In this document: one piece after another, positions 2,815 through 20,036 of the stretch
Numbering within the stretch: the stretch's first letter is position 1
Layout: each line of letters opens with the position of its first letter
Virus record (IMG/VR): IMGVR_UViG_3300037296_000217
Span: 1-21,075 of that record
From: a virus
Direction: 5' to 3' (one strand)
Length of the DNA stretch: 21,075 bases
Program-made: the position numbers and the translations under genes
Notes under the pieces: generated by a model
What the model saw: only the letters and a program-made list of their open reading frames with translations
Told to the model about the DNA's origin: nothing
Database searches by the model: none

Positions 2815-3683
2815 GCTGCTATTCCTCGCTCTTTGAGTTTTTCTATGGTGACTAGGCCCGCATTCAACAACTCATTTGCCAAGCCTACGTTGATCGCGCT
2901 TGGCGAAACGGCTTTCCCGTTGTTGACCATGTTTGCGTAGAAGGTCAGGCGCTCGTCGTTGGTGAAAACCTTTTTCGCCGCTGGGGCTTTGTGGTTCTTC
3001 CAGCGTTCATCGGCCAGCCAACCGTCCGACATTTTGAGATATTGGCGGCGGTTCCCTTCGTTCTCGGCTTCGTAGGCCATCGCAGCCGCAACGATGTGCG
3101 CGGGGTCTGCCCCTGCCTCAACCGCAGCATCGAAAAGCTGCCTTGAATTTTGTTCACCGTTGGGTCTTGGGTGCGCTTCCCAAAAATCATTGAAAAAATC
3201 TGTGTGTGGGTCGATTTTCGACACACACTGTTCCTTTACAGGTTCCTTTACAGGTTCCTCTCCACTGGGGTGGAGTTTGCTATGCTCAAAAGTGGAGTTT
3301 GCTCCGTTCAAAAGTGGAGTTTGCTCCGTAGCTGTCTCCACTCCGGTGGAGTTTGGGCTGTCTCCACTTTGTGGAGTTTGCCTTGTGGTCAGGTCTACAT
3401 CGCACCCCAAGATGAAGTAGGTGCGGCGTTTTGACGTGCCTGGTATTGTTGAACGTCTGCGCTCCAAAAGGCCGACCGTTTGGAGGGTATCAAGGCACTT
3501 ATTCAACCCGCCGTTTGACAGTCCGGTTTTGCGCATCAGTGTCTCCTGAGACGGGAAACATGCGCTCTCTGGGTCGCGTTCGTCATTGTGATAATCACAC
3601 AGGTGGAACAGCACGCGAAACGCGCCTGACGTGATCAGCTTGGGGTCTAGCGTTGCCAGCCAGTATGTCGCTTTGTGGCTCAT
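2811..3683 (-). CDS. Phage replication initiator (lambda O-like organisation)
   Basis: This 290-residue protein has three parts. Residues 1-95 are a winged helix-turn-helix of the replication-initiator type (ACFPSQETLMRKTGLSNGGL is the HTH core). Residues 100-151 are a low-complexity linker (Thr, Pro, Asn, Glu, with EPVKEPVKE). Residues 160-235 resemble the C-terminal domain of phage replisome organisers, with FNDFWEAHPRP and a later DGWLADERW. The inferred role is to bind the origin and recruit the host helicase or its loader. The linker DNA carries a repeat array, as lambda O carries its origin. The start overlaps the winged-HTH gene upstream (ATGA) and has GAGGGTGAT before it. No separate helicase loader gene is recognisable nearby. 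Confidence 0.8.
   Translation of the reverse strand: MSHKATYWLATLDPKLITSGAFRVLFHLCDYHNDERDPESACFPSQETLMRKTGLSNGGLNKCLDTLQTVGLLERRRSTIPGTSKRRTYFILGCDVDLTTRQTPQSGDSPNSTGVETATEQTPLLNGANSTFEHSKLHPSGEEPVKEPVKEQCVSKIDPHTDFFNDFWEAHPRPNGEQNSRQLFDAAVEAGADPAHIVAAAMAYEAENEGNRRQYLKMSDGWLADERWKNHKAPAAKKVFTNDERLTFYANMVNNGKAVSPSAINVGLANELLNAGLVTIEKLKERGIAA
3230..3381 (-). repeat. Iteron array inside the initiator gene, probable origin of replication
   Basis: On the plus strand GTGGAGTTTG occurs five times, starting at 3270, 3292, 3314, 3346 and 3371; the first three are exactly 22 bases apart. Copies 1, 4 and 5 are preceded by CTCCAC, forming short dyads (CTCCAC-3/4 bases-GTGGAG) at 3260, 3336 and 3362. 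Next to them, GTTCCTTTACAG is repeated in tandem at 3230 and 3242. An A/T-rich stretch lies at 3181-3200, and a near-palindrome built on GTGTGTG/CACACAC is at 3202-3228. The repeats are read in different frames by the gene (QTP, NST, KLH), so the conserved unit is the DNA and not a peptide. Iterons inside the initiator gene plus an A/T-rich flank is the lambda-type origin layout. Confidence 0.75.
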
Positions 3684-6806: not shown

Positions 6807-7385
6807 TCACTTTTGATGTTTGAGTTGACGTGCGGCTGCGTTCTCTGCCGCCATCCGGTCGTGCAGAGCGTTGTATCGGTGGCGGCGCAGGCCAGTGACG
6901 CCAGAGTGACCGAAATTTGCCTTTGTCGCGGCACACAGGCGCTCATGGTTTGCCGCAACATACGCAAGCTCGACCTCAAAGGCTTCGACTTGTGAAAAGC
7001 CCCCCGCGCCTGAAACATGACGAACAGACGCAGGGGGGCGCGCAGTGCTTTGCGCAGTCACCTCGGGAGGAGGCGTTGAGGCAGAGTCCAAGGACTCAAC
7101 CAGCGGAGACACCGCCGCTGGACGGTATTCTGTGGGGGAGGTCATGCCGCACTGGCTTGTAGAATCGACGCAGCTAGTGTCAGGCTGTGAGGTATGAGAT
7201 TTATTCTGGTCCAAGCCATAAATGCGGCGTTCTTTTTGACCCTCGCACCCGTGGGACAAATTGCCCTTTTGGCTTACGTTTTCACACTCCAAGCGTTGAG
7301 CTGGGTAGACTACCTGTGCGGCGCCCTTATTCCCATGTACGCCATCGGAAAAATCGCATGGGTGTACTGGCTGTAGCGCGCTCAT
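6807..7385 (-). CDS. Hypothetical protein, N-terminus uncertain
   Basis: The frame is open for 192 residues from ATG 7385, which overlaps the Cro-like stop (ATGA) and has GGGGG about 8 bases upstream. An alternative start at 7145 gives 112 residues beginning MTSPTEYRPAAVSPL but has no ribosome site. The C-terminal 65 residues look like real protein (VEAFEVELAYVAANHERLCAA, then a helical Arg/Ala-rich end). The first 80 residues are rich in Cys, His, Ser and Gln and could be non-coding, because a codon-aligned membrane-type frame runs opposite (7194-7376). Function is unknown. The C-terminal part is well supported; the N-terminus is open. Confidence 0.5.
   Translation of the reverse strand: MSALQPVHPCDFSDGVHGNKGAAQVVYPAQRLECENVSQKGNLSHGCEGQKERRIYGLDQNKSHTSQPDTSCVDSTSQCGMTSPTEYRPAAVSPLVESLDSASTPPPEVTAQSTARPPASVRHVSGAGGFSQVEAFEVELAYVAANHERLCAATKANFGHSGVTGLRRHRYNALHDRMAAENAAARQLKHQK
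7194..7376 (+). CDS. Possible 60-residue membrane protein, antisense within the leftward operon
   Basis: The frame runs from ATG to TAG in the gap just beyond the Cro-like gene. The product is strongly hydrophobic with two likely membrane segments (residues about 3-31 and 40-58) and a short Asp-containing turn (WVDYL). Third-position GC (38 of 60) is higher than first-position GC (31 of 60) by my count, mildly in favour of coding. A caution is that its codons align exactly with those of the opposite frame, and the antisense of a hydrophilic protein is automatically hydrophobic. The ribosome site is poor (GTGAGGT ends right at the ATG). If real, it could be an exclusion-type membrane protein made in the lysogen, but this is speculative. 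Confidence 0.3.
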   Translation: MRFILVQAINAAFFLTLAPVGQIALLAYVFTLQALSWVDYLCGALIPMYAIGKIAWVYWL

Positions 7386-7690
7386 GACGAAGCCCCCGCA
7401 GATTTCCCCGCAGCCTGCCCTTGAACGGCGGGCGATGCGTTGCCACGTTTATTAGCAGGCAAGGAACCATCTTTAACGCCCCGATCAGCGGGCACAGATG
7501 GAGATTTTACCAATGCGGCAATTTCAACTTTACCGCCCGTCGCGCGATGGATGCGCAACGCGACCGCAAGGCTGGGCGTCTTTAGCTGCTGAACAATCTC
7601 GTTCATGTAGCTGGGCGAAACTTCAGCAACCAACGCAAGCTGGCGCTGCGTGATGCCTGATTTACCCAAGTATTCGGTCAATGTGTCCAT
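7382..7690 (-). CDS. Cro-like helix-turn-helix regulator
   Basis: This 102-residue protein starts at ATG 7690 and reads MDTLTEYLGKSGITQRQLAL. The HTH is at residues 12-35 (ITQRQLALVAEVSPSYMNEIV), followed by LAVALRIHRATGGKV, typical of Cro/YdaS-type phage regulators. The Ser/Gly/Lys-rich C-terminus lacks clear structure. An upstream ATG (7726) would place the operator 7699-7717 inside the gene, so 7690 is preferred. No ribosome site precedes it, and it coincides with the predicted start of transcription from the leftward promoter, so a leaderless message is likely. It is divergent from the repressor and is the first gene of the leftward early operon. Confidence 0.75.
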   Translation of the reverse strand: MDTLTEYLGKSGITQRQLALVAEVSPSYMNEIVQQLKTPSLAVALRIHRATGGKVEIAALVKSPSVPADRGVKDGSLPANKRGNASPAVQGQAAGKSAGASS

Positions 7691-7696
7691 GTCGCC

Positions 7697-7726
7697 ATTG
7701 TTCGCACATAGCGAACAAGAGGTCAA
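7697..7726 (-). promoter_or_regulatory. Leftward early promoter (PL-like)
   Basis: On the minus strand TTGACC (7726-7721) and AACAAT (7702-7697) are separated by 18 bases, and the operator 7699-7717 fills the spacer. The predicted transcription start, about 7 bases further, falls on the A of the Cro-like ATG at 7690. The rightward promoter has the same boxes, spacing and operator position. Confidence 0.65.
7699..7717. promoter_or_regulatory. Operator 1: perfect TGTTCGC-N5-GCGAACA
   Basis: This is a 19-bp dyad with perfect 7-bp arms and spacer ACATA. It overlaps the -35/-10 spacer of the leftward promoter, so a bound dimer would block the polymerase. It shares its consensus with the sites at 7733, 8266 and 8300. 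Confidence 0.75.
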
Positions 7727-7732
7727 CGATAA

Positions 7733-7751
7733 AGTTCGCTATTTGCGACGG
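7733..7751. promoter_or_regulatory. Operator 2: diverged copy (AGTTCGC-N5-GCGACGG)
   Basis: The left arm matches 6 of 7 positions and the right arm 4 of 7. Its start is 34 bp from that of operator 1. It lies just upstream of the repressor promoter region, where a bound repressor could contact polymerase. Confidence 0.55.
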
Positions 7752-7778
7752 GCGTATTCTGGCGTCAACTTATATAGT
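7750..7778 (+). promoter_or_regulatory. Candidate repressor-maintenance promoter (PRM-like)
   Basis: TATAGT at 7773-7778 matches the -10 consensus at 5 of 6 positions and would start transcription at about 7785, the A of the repressor ATG. No good -35 box exists around 7750-7755, where operator 2 ends. A weak -35 next to an operator is the arrangement of a repressor-activated promoter. This is inferred only. Confidence 0.4.
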
Positions 7779-7784
7779 GATGGG

Positions 7785-8093
7785 ATGAAACTTCGCATAA
7801 CAGAATGGCGCAAAAAGCGCGAATTGACTGTAGACGCTCTTGCTAGCAAGGCGGGGCTGAGCAAGTCCTATCTGAGCGAATTAGCTAACGGCAAAAAGAC
7901 AGTCAACGCGCGCCATTTAGAAATGTTGGCGAAGGCGCTTGGATGTTCCCCGCTAGACCTACTGGATGACTCTAGCGTTCAGCCTGACATTATAGAGCAT
8001 ATCCGTAAGATGCAGACGCTAACGCCAGACGATAGACAGGCGGTTATTCGTCACGCGGAGAGCCTTGCGCGGACAGATGAACAAAGCGGCTGA
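7785..8093 (+). CDS. Short CI-like repressor (XRE-family HTH)
   Basis: This 102-residue protein reads MKLRITEWRKKRELTVDALA. The XRE-type HTH spans residues 5-60 (LTVDALASKAGLSKSYLSEL, then NARHLEMLAKALGCSPLDLL). The last 35 residues form a short helical tail (EHIRKMQTLTPDDRQAVIRH), with no LexA-like peptidase domain. It therefore cannot self-cleave like lambda CI; induction must depend on another factor. Start 7785 is chosen because the longer frame from 7650 would run through the operators and the Cro-like gene. It is probably the lysogenic repressor that binds the four TGTTCGC-N5-GCGAACA sites. Little ribosome-site sequence is visible (GATGGG directly before ATG). Confidence 0.8.
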   Translation: MKLRITEWRKKRELTVDALASKAGLSKSYLSELANGKKTVNARHLEMLAKALGCSPLDLLDDSSVQPDIIEHIRKMQTLTPDDRQAVIRHAESLARTDEQSG

Positions 8094-8181
8094 ATCCAAG
8101 CCACTGTGAGAGAGCGCCCGGCGATAGGCTTGCAAGGGCCGCAATCAAACGTGCTTCGTCTTTTGTGTCTCGCTCATTCAT
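8044..8181 (-). CDS. Possible 45-residue protein opposite the repressor 3' end
   Basis: The frame from ATG 8181 has GAAGGG nine bases upstream and encodes MNERDTKDEARLIAALASLS, followed by an amphipathic helix and a polar tail. It overlaps the repressor's last 50 bases in antisense. If expressed it could give antisense control of the repressor message as well as a peptide. Length and composition alone do not prove it; a longer version starts at 8265. No family is recognised. Confidence 0.25.
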   Translation of the reverse strand: MNERDTKDEARLIAALASLSPGALSQWLGFSRFVHLSAQGSPRDE

Positions 8182-8265
8182 CGCTTTAGCACCCTTCCCG
8201 TTCATGGTCCGTTCTTGATAGCACTTCTTTAATGTCACGTTAAGATAAAACCCCTGCGTTCGCAA

Positions 8266-8284
8266 TGTTCGCTATTAGCAAACT
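8266..8284. promoter_or_regulatory. Operator 3: TGTTCGC-N5-GCAAACT
   Basis: The left arm is perfect and the right arm matches 5 of 7 positions; the spacer is TATTA. An extra half-site GTTCGC lies just to the left (8258-8263). It is placed 34 bp before operator 4, the same pitch as operators 1 and 2. Confidence 0.65.
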
Positions 8285-8290
8285 TTTCTA

Positions 8291-8320
8291 TTGACGGCGT
8301 GTTCGCCATATGCGAACAAT
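8291..8320 (+). promoter_or_regulatory. Rightward early promoter (PR-like)
   Basis: TTGACG (8291-8296) and AACAAT (8315-8320) are 18 bases apart, with operator 4 between them. Transcription would start near 8327, leaving about 30 bases of leader with AGGAG before the first gene at 8358. Apart from operators and promoter, 8182-8357 shows no other gene. Confidence 0.65.
8300..8318. promoter_or_regulatory. Operator 4: perfect TGTTCGC-N5-GCGAACA
   Basis: This is a 19-bp dyad with perfect arms and spacer CATAT. It lies between the -35 and -10 boxes of the rightward promoter, mirroring operator 1 in the leftward promoter. Confidence 0.75.
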
Positions 8321-16485: not shown

Positions 16486-16775
16486 ACCAGCCAAAGCCAC
16501 ACAATCCTGACACCCTTGCCAGCCGCTGGGGAATTAGTGCTACAACGGTTCGCAATATGTGCGAGGATGGACGCCTGCCCCATTTCAGAATTGGCAAGCT
16601 ATACCGCATCCCCGCGGCTGCTGTTGAGGAATACGAAGAATGCCAGACATCACAATCGGACGGCTCCGCGGCGGATACTGTGTATCATGGCGAGAGGGCG
16701 GAAAGCGGCGGCGCTATCAACTTGCGGCACGCACGCAAAAGGACGCAGAGTCCGAAGGCCGCGACAGGTATTTAA
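16482..16775 (+). CDS. Excisionase-like HTH protein
   Basis: This 97-residue protein carries a helix-turn-helix/wing of the excisionase family: TLASRWGISATTVRNMCEDG (residues 11-30), then LPHFRIGKLYRIPAAAVEEY (31-50). Its ATG overlaps the truncated copy's stop (TGA 16483-16485). The last 45 residues overlap the integrase start in another frame by 136 bases and look like shadow sequence, so the functional part is probably the first 55 residues. Being just upstream of the integrase and similar to Xis, it probably directs excision or controls int. Confidence 0.7.
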   Translation: MNQPKPHNPDTLASRWGISATTVRNMCEDGRLPHFRIGKLYRIPAAAVEEYEECQTSQSDGSAADTVYHGERAESGGAINLRHARKRTQSPKAATGI

Positions 16776-17647
16776 AGGAGACTGTCACCCGCGGCGGTCA
16801 CACCATCGCCGTGCTTTGGGCGATGTATATTGAATACCTAGGCGACAAGCCTACCGCGGCGACAATGGGCTGGACAGGGAAAGCCGTCCTTGAACACTTC
16901 GGTTCACTGCGCCCCGACCAGCTTACCATATCAGACAGCCGCGGCTATATTGCAAAACGCACCGCGGCTGGGCGCAAGGTCGGCAGCATCCACACCGAAC
17001 TTGGGCACCTGAGAAGCTGCATGAATTGGGCAAAGAACAAAGCCGCGGCGATTGACCGGGTACCGCCCATTGAAATGCCCGCGAAGCCTGACAGCGATGT
17101 GCAGCCGCTCACGGATGTTGAGATCCAGAAGATCGTCGATAACTGCGCCGCGCCCCACGTGAGGCTTGCGGTGATCCTATTGTTGACGACAGGCGGTCGC
17201 GTTTCTGCCATTCTGGATCGAACATGGGATAAGATCGACTTTGACCGCGGCGTGATTGATTTGCGCCTGACCGATGGCGTCACACGGAAGGGGCGCGCGG
17301 TTCTGCCCATGAACGCACTTGCCCGCAACTCACTGAAACAGGCCTTTGATGCGCGAATGACGGATTGGGTTGTTGAGTACAACGGAAAGCCGATCAAGTC
17401 GATCAGGACAGGATATGCCGCGGCGTTGCGCCGTGCTGGCCTGTCGGGTATCCGCGTCCACCAGATCCGCCACACGGTCGCTGTTCGGATGCTAGCCGCG
17501 GGCCAGCCGATTGAGCGGGTCAGCCAGTATCTAGGCCACAGCAACATCCAGATCACGCAGAAAATATACGCCCGATTCCGGCCCGAACACTTGTCAGATG
17601 CCGCGGCGGTTTTGAACTTCGGAATGGGTGGGCTGAAAGGTGTTTAG
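16640..17647 (+). CDS. int: Tyrosine recombinase, phage integrase
   Basis: This 335-residue protein has the catalytic residues of the family: Arg187 (TTGGRVSAIL), Lys217 (RKGRAVLP), His274-x2-Arg277 (VHQIRHT), His300 (LGHSNIQIT) and nucleophile Tyr310 (KIYARF). The N-terminal 70 residues form a beta-type arm-binding region (MPDITIGRLRGGYCVSWREG). It integrates and excises the phage at the tRNA-Val core that follows it (17701-17755). Translation start 16640 overlaps the excisionase frame by 136 bases. The DNA is unusual: 10 of the window's 12 CCGCGG hexamers lie within this gene and an eleventh in the adjoining xis. Confidence 0.95.
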   Translation: MPDITIGRLRGGYCVSWREGGKRRRYQLAARTQKDAESEGRDRYLKETVTRGGHTIAVLWAMYIEYLGDKPTAATMGWTGKAVLEHFGSLRPDQLTISDSRGYIAKRTAAGRKVGSIHTELGHLRSCMNWAKNKAAAIDRVPPIEMPAKPDSDVQPLTDVEIQKIVDNCAAPHVRLAVILLLTTGGRVSAILDRTWDKIDFDRGVIDLRLTDGVTRKGRAVLPMNALARNSLKQAFDARMTDWVVEYNGKPIKSIRTGYAAALRRAGLSGIRVHQIRHTVAVRMLAAGQPIERVSQYLGHSNIQITQKIYARFRPEHLSDAAAVLNFGMGGLKGV

Positions 17648-19961: not shown

Positions 19962-20036
19962 AGGCGGGTAGCTCATTGGTAGAGCAGAGCACTCATAATG
20001 CTTTGGTAGCGGGTTCGATCCCCGCCCCGCCTACCA
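19962..20036 (+). tRNA. tRNA with CAU anticodon (Met, or Ile2 if lysidine-modified)
   Basis: A full cloverleaf is visible: acceptor AGGCGGG/CCCGCCT, D arm GCTC/GAGC, anticodon stem GAGCA/TGCTT with loop CTCATAA (anticodon CAT at 19994-19996), T arm GCGGG/CCCGC and encoded CCA. A1-U72 pairing excludes a normal bacterial initiator. Elongator Met and Ile(CAU) share this anticodon, so the identity depends on whether the host's TilS modifies it. A phage-encoded copy may supply codons or replace a tRNA cut by host defence. Confidence 0.9.

Follow-up and report, generated by a model that had tools for sequence, protein, structure and literature searches.

Analysis of the window, the whole 21,075-base stretch of the virus record, revealed a repressor-like gene placed between two pairs of operators, as the original prediction had it. 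The features of this region are listed below by coordinates and strand.

7382-7690, minus strand: Cro-like HTH protein of 102 aa, with recognition helix SPSYMNEI, which resembles SKSYLSEL of the repressor; ATG at 7690
7697-7726, minus strand: leftward early promoter, TTGACC-18-AACAAT; its predicted start coincides with the cro-like ATG and its geometry is kept in relatives
7699-7717: O1L operator, perfect TGTTCGC-N5-GCGAACA, in the leftward promoter spacer
7733-7751: O2L operator, four mismatches with the inner half GTTCGC intact; its centre is at -43 from the repressor ATG
7773-7784, plus strand: predicted repressor promoter; -10 TATAGT ends 6 nt before the ATG at 7785, with no good -35
7785-8093, plus strand: repressor-like gene of 102 aa, a Cro/C1-type HTH followed by two C-terminal helices, without a peptidase domain
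8044-8181, minus strand: micro-gene of 45 aa, convergent with the repressor gene and overlapping its 3' end; proposed anti-repressor with homology to the C-terminal helices of the repressor
8200-8214: LexA (SOS) box GTTCATGGTCCGTTC, an alphaproteobacterial motif upstream of the micro-gene; putative LexA site
8266-8284: O2R operator, two mismatches, 34 bp upstream of O1R
8291-8320, plus strand: rightward early promoter, TTGACG-18-AACAAT; geometry kept in relatives
8300-8318: O1R operator, perfect TGTTCGC-N5-GCGAACA, in the rightward early promoter spacer

Replication-initiation genes are found on the left side together with the Cro-like gene (7690-7382), and on the right side a short operon leads to recT and a tyrosine integrase. 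Gene order around the repressor is thus the mirror image of the lambda layout. The region is quite probably a temperate phage immunity region with a lambda-type two-sided switch, as one part of the full explanation developed below. A tRNA-Met (CAT) is present at 19962-20036, 2.3 kb past the integrase gene (16640-17647); it possibly marks the neighbourhood of an attachment site or is a carried tRNA.

The perfect sites at 7699 and 8300 and the diverged sites at 7733 and 8266 were found exactly where they had been predicted, and the 34-bp distance, measured start to start or centre to centre, was confirmed in both pairs. A pattern search of the window allowing three mismatches gave five matches against 1.6 expected, a result of modest significance, as 3 of 100 shuffled sequences also reached five. 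A position matrix built exclusively on left O1 operators from other loci ranked the four operators as the four best sites in the 21 kb, with scores of 20.1, 18.8, 18.2 and 14.8 (next site 11.9). Against the observed pair sums of 39 and 33, 200 Markov sequences, each 21 kb long, gave no more than 22. An extra half-site GTTCGC lies right before O2R (8257-8284; CGTTCGCAATGTTCGCTAT, the sixth-best matrix score in the window).

Both early promoters are sigma-70-like, with 18-bp spacers that hold the O1 sites. The predicted promoter boxes stand; the placement of the operator within the spacer is correct only in part, since each O1 operator fills the spacer and also runs on, its last four bases being the first four of the -10 box. 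Comparison with lambda DNA (J02459) further showed that an operator in the spacer is not the departure from lambda that had been supposed: the PR -35 lies 4 bp upstream of OR1, the last four OR1 bases are the first four of the -10, and OL1 is alike. The operator inside the promoter spacer was therefore rejected as a difference between the two systems and counted as a likeness, the first operator lying between the early-promoter -35 and -10 and running into the -10 in both.

Four features were overlooked in the earlier account: the repressor promoter and its -43 site, mRNA starts that are probably leaderless, the alternation of the left pairs by one turn described below, and the convergent micro-gene with its LexA box. 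The -10-like hexamer of the repressor promoter ends exactly 6 nt upstream of the ATG in the window and in many relatives, where the hexamers at this position are TATACT (pCB2047-A and L012), TATCGT (Pkon1), TATACC (L015 and L077) and TATCAT (L082). As this promoter has no good -35, its activation from O2L is likely. Most loci have 16-20 bp between the cro ATG and the centre of O1. Judged from the -10-to-ATG and O1-to-ATG geometry, the repressor and Cro-like mRNAs are probably leaderless; leaderless cI and cro mRNAs have been reported for PY54 (PMC4488713).

Protein searches identified Sulfitobacter phage pCB2047-A and Paracoccus phage Pkon1 as relatives, and further relatives were collected from viral contigs (L010-L015) and from prophages in genomes searched by family. 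Judging from the named phages, the relatives are apparently for the most part phages and prophages of Rhodobacterales. Duplicates were left out of all counts (L109 equals L083; L104 and L110 equal L010 and L011). Loci L101, L102, L103, L105, L106, L107, L111 and L112, and also L108, which ends before any right pair could appear, served as an out-of-sample set with the matrix frozen. DNA-level searches added no relative: a similarity search of phages with the switch region gave no match, one operator pattern scan of viral contigs gave a single unrelated coding match and another none, and a further scan gave 39 viral stretches of which one alone held even a weak match to the repressor profile. 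A scan of genome contigs with the first profile found distant HTH proteins only.

Some candidates were set apart. L100 is a copy with an internal stop, lacking operators and box, and was treated as decayed. L085 has left sites only, with no right pair, box or clear micro-gene. The Rhizobiales phages PBC5 and RHph_I1_23 were set aside as distant relatives; they carry arrays of TTCAGTCA half-sites (L006 3840-3910 and 4940-4995; L007 3865-3912 and 5150-5195) and no LexA box. These arrays flank both ends of the repressor region and one overlaps a TTGACTGA -35-like box, so their operator layout differs and the two-sided logic is the same. In pCB2047-A the annotated start of the repressor SUAG_00031 (L004 3974-4297) is probably 27 nt early, because the conserved -10, the O2 distance and the alignment agree on ATG 4001.

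Of 23 right pairs compared in the relatives, 20 had a spacing of 34 bp, the remaining three being at 33 or 35 bp; conservation of the spacing, whose absence had been named as grounds for refutation, is thus observed. With a leave-one-out matrix the best right pair was at 34 bp in 13 loci and at 33 bp in L014, and Markov controls never reached the observed right-pair sum in any of these. The right pair of L015, whose operator is based on GTGCA, is also at 34 bp. Among the new loci scored with the frozen matrix, six right pairs were at 34 bp and two at 35 bp. The right pair forms a self-contained unit, since about 0.45 to 4.0 kb separate it from the repressor ATG, depending on the locus. In the left pair, every locus has O2L 42-44 bp before the repressor start codon (-43 in the window and most relatives; -43 or -44 in all nine new loci), and the O1-O2 spacing takes only the values 33-35 or 44 bp, two classes about one helical turn apart. 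In L010 (5983-6001), and at the same place in L011, L081 and L102, a third high-scoring operator covers the repressor start at -9 and is spaced 34 bp from O2; its score is weak in L080 and L108, and the window lacks it. Its position resembles that of lambda OR3.

Four operator types were found across the loci (TGTTCGC, TGTCG, TGTCAC and GTGCA). A change of operator sequence is accompanied by a change in the recognition helices of both repressor and Cro, SKSY or SRSY occurring with TTCGC-type operators and SRSQ with TGTCG-type operators. The symmetric, OL/OR-like control by four operators that was originally proposed is supported, and its spacing is conserved.

At the sequence level, the lambda arrangement is matched by shared operators that lie on either side of the repressor gene and overlap with each of the early promoters. 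In lambda, too, cI lies between two operator groups, cro and replication genes are on one side and recombination and integration genes on the other, and the repressor start is at the ATG; the OR2 centre is 42 bp from the cI start compared with 43 bp here, where the mRNA start is a predicted one. Lambda differs in having three operators per side instead of two, an O1-O2 distance of 24 bp instead of 34 bp, one helical turn less, and a self-cleaving S24 repressor instead of a 102-aa, HTH-only protein. The immB region of the telomere phages N15 and PY54 (PMC4488713; AF064539) likewise has divergent repressor and cro genes, and N15 has operators on both sides of the repressor gene. Leaderless cI and cro mRNAs, as predicted here, are reported for PY54 (PMC4488713). 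N15 differs in its closer operators, annotated as blocks of 39 and 65 bp (AF064539), and in a repressor gene about twice as long.

At 10.5 bp per turn, the 24 bp between lambda OR1 and OR2 correspond to 2.29 turns and the 34 bp here to 3.24 turns. A contact between two dimers is the preferred account of the spacing, because 34 bp gives the helix face used in lambda one turn further on; the spacing is thus suggestive of cooperative binding at O1 and O2. It is rather unlikely that the 34 bp are instead set by an invariable promoter geometry, as would be the case if O2-bound repressor or Cro touched RNA polymerase at about -52. Such a geometry would agree with the right -35 box, whose distance to each of the two sites is likewise constant among the compared loci, and with L086, whose repressor (L095 3079-3687) carries an S24 peptidase domain and keeps operator pairs at 34 bp, so that the contact setting the spacing is not unique to the short C-terminus. 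However, in L010, L011, L081 and L102 the 34 bp recur between O2L and the third site, where the promoter context is another one, and the spacings of the left pairs, 33-35 or 44 bp, follow a helical-phase pattern. Looping of the DNA between the pairs by the repressor, which the original prediction had raised, gained no support: the pair-to-pair distance ranges from about 0.57 to 4.1 kb among loci without helical phase, although a loop may still form. Helical phasing of the two pairs was rejected on the O1L-O1R distances of the compact loci (601, 606, 583, 604, 574, 603, 591 and 592 bp), which keep no phase.

A small minus-strand frame past the repressor gene is present in all 14 short-repressor loci with a right pair and in all nine new loci; in the window GGAAGGG lies upstream of its ATG. 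A profile of the micro-proteins from the 14 loci matched the repressor C-terminal helices with a probability of 95.5 and a score of about 39, compared with 12 for shuffled sequences, 13 for column-permuted alignments and 11 for reversed sequences. The ten weakest members alone gave a score of 34, and independent micro-frames from the new loci matched the repressor C-terminus with a probability of 92.3; the window's micro-protein alone matched the C-terminus profile weakly (E 0.29). Because the homologous part lies mostly outside the repressor gene, the micro-gene is not an antisense echo of it.

The motif GTTC-N7-GTTC, or its complement, is located 12-24 nt before most micro-gene starts and overlaps the start in L015. 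Thirteen of 18 loci (13 of the 14 with a micro-gene) have it within 300 bp past the repressor gene, compared with 0-2 of 18 for any other spacer length from 3 to 13. LexA-type boxes were found in seven of nine new loci and, in all, in 20 of 23 short-repressor loci with a micro-gene; L012, L108 and L111 have the micro-gene and lack the exact box. L086, the locus with the S24-domain repressor, has no evident micro-gene and no LexA-type box, an apparent domain swap between self-cleaving and split control. The Caulobacter LexA box has the form GTTC-N7-GTTC (PMC12700426), and in Dinoroseobacter shibae of the Rhodobacterales the consensus motifs taken for LexA were of the GTTC/GAAC type (PMC6473078). 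The window holds a second GTTC-N7-GTTC or GAAC-N7-GAAC match at 2994-3008, within the replication region. A leftward promoter at O2R driving the micro-gene was rejected as a general explanation, since the micro-gene of L081 is still beside the repressor gene when the right pair there lies at a distance of 4 kb.

The AlphaFold model of the repressor consists of an HTH and two C-terminal helices (mean pLDDT 85). A fold search with this model ranked SinR of the SinR/SinI complex first in the PDB, in a loose domain alignment (rmsd 6.4). SinR/SinI is a host biofilm regulator and not a phage system, and it is not known to be under LexA. The likeness to SinR/SinI of Bacillus subtilis (PDB 1b0n) lies in an HTH repressor whose C-terminal multimerisation part is helical, and in a small antagonist built as a copy of this part, as the micro-protein homology indicates here. 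The best reading of the micro-gene, from these comparisons, is a DNA-damage-induced, SinI-like anti-repressor of a repressor unable to cleave itself.

It is quite unlikely that, in a real switch, the convergent frame instead encodes a co-repressor, or belongs to a LexA-controlled transcript whose synthesis, convergent with that of the repressor mRNA, counteracts the latter. Transcription itself could interfere, given that the frame runs against the repressor gene and extends into its 3' end, and P1 encodes a small co-repressor, Lxc (review). Antisense RNA, however, needs no protein homology, yet such homology with the C-terminal part of the repressor is kept in 14 loci and again in an independent set, and a damage-induced co-repressor would oppose induction. 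That the four sites are chance palindromes is extremely improbable: the raw pattern count, just modestly above shuffles, speaks for it, and it is contradicted by the matrix scores, the controls, the conservation in more than 20 diverged loci and the out-of-sample test.

Under the anti-repressor reading, the micro-gene product would join a known class. Small LexA-controlled proteins that inactivate a repressor, as predicted here, include Tum of 186, AntC of N15 and GftA/GfoA of Gifsy, whose repressor is likewise not cleaved; in the parts of the source consulted, no resemblance to the repressor C-terminus is reported for these proteins, and the Gifsy anti-repressor genes lie in a separate module instead of convergent beside the repressor (PMC3121763). 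Small anti-repressor proteins under other controls are also known (PMC10432266, PMC11323111). In the open-licence papers searched, no report was found of an anti-repressor that copies the repressor's own C-terminus and is convergent to it.

We therefore favour, with good confidence, a model that combines a two-sided switch of four operators with a LexA-controlled anti-repressor micro-gene. The 102-residue repressor and the Cro-like protein would bind the same four operators. Repressor at O1L and O1R would block RNA polymerase between the -35 and -10 of both early promoters, of which the leftward one would serve cro and the replication genes and the rightward one recT and the integrase gene. 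O2L and O2R, 34 bp further out, may hold a second dimer that aids the first through a face-specific contact, and the position of O2L would also suit activation of the predicted leaderless promoter of the repressor gene. Induction would be handed to the convergent micro-gene, as the repressor lacks a self-cleaving domain. DNA damage would lead to expression of this putatively LexA-bound gene, and its 45-residue product, a copy of the repressor C-terminal helices, may pair with the repressor and break its multimers. Both early promoters would then be freed.

For this widespread, mainly Rhodobacterales group of temperate phages, it seems likely that a split system takes the place of lambda's self-cleaving repressor: a short repressor acting on operator pairs with an invariant spacing of 34 bp, and a convergent, LexA-controlled micro-gene, a detached copy of the multimerisation helices, that would turn DNA damage into induction. 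No characterised switch of this kind in the same bacterial group was found in the open literature searched. The combination of 34-bp operator pairs with a GTTC-N7-GTTC micro-gene provides a signature for finding and annotating such prophages. The relatives also form a natural series in which operator sequences vary and the spacing stays, one helical turn beyond that of lambda, which makes the spacing rule directly testable. If true, the model would explain how phages whose repressors lack a self-cleaving domain respond to DNA damage.
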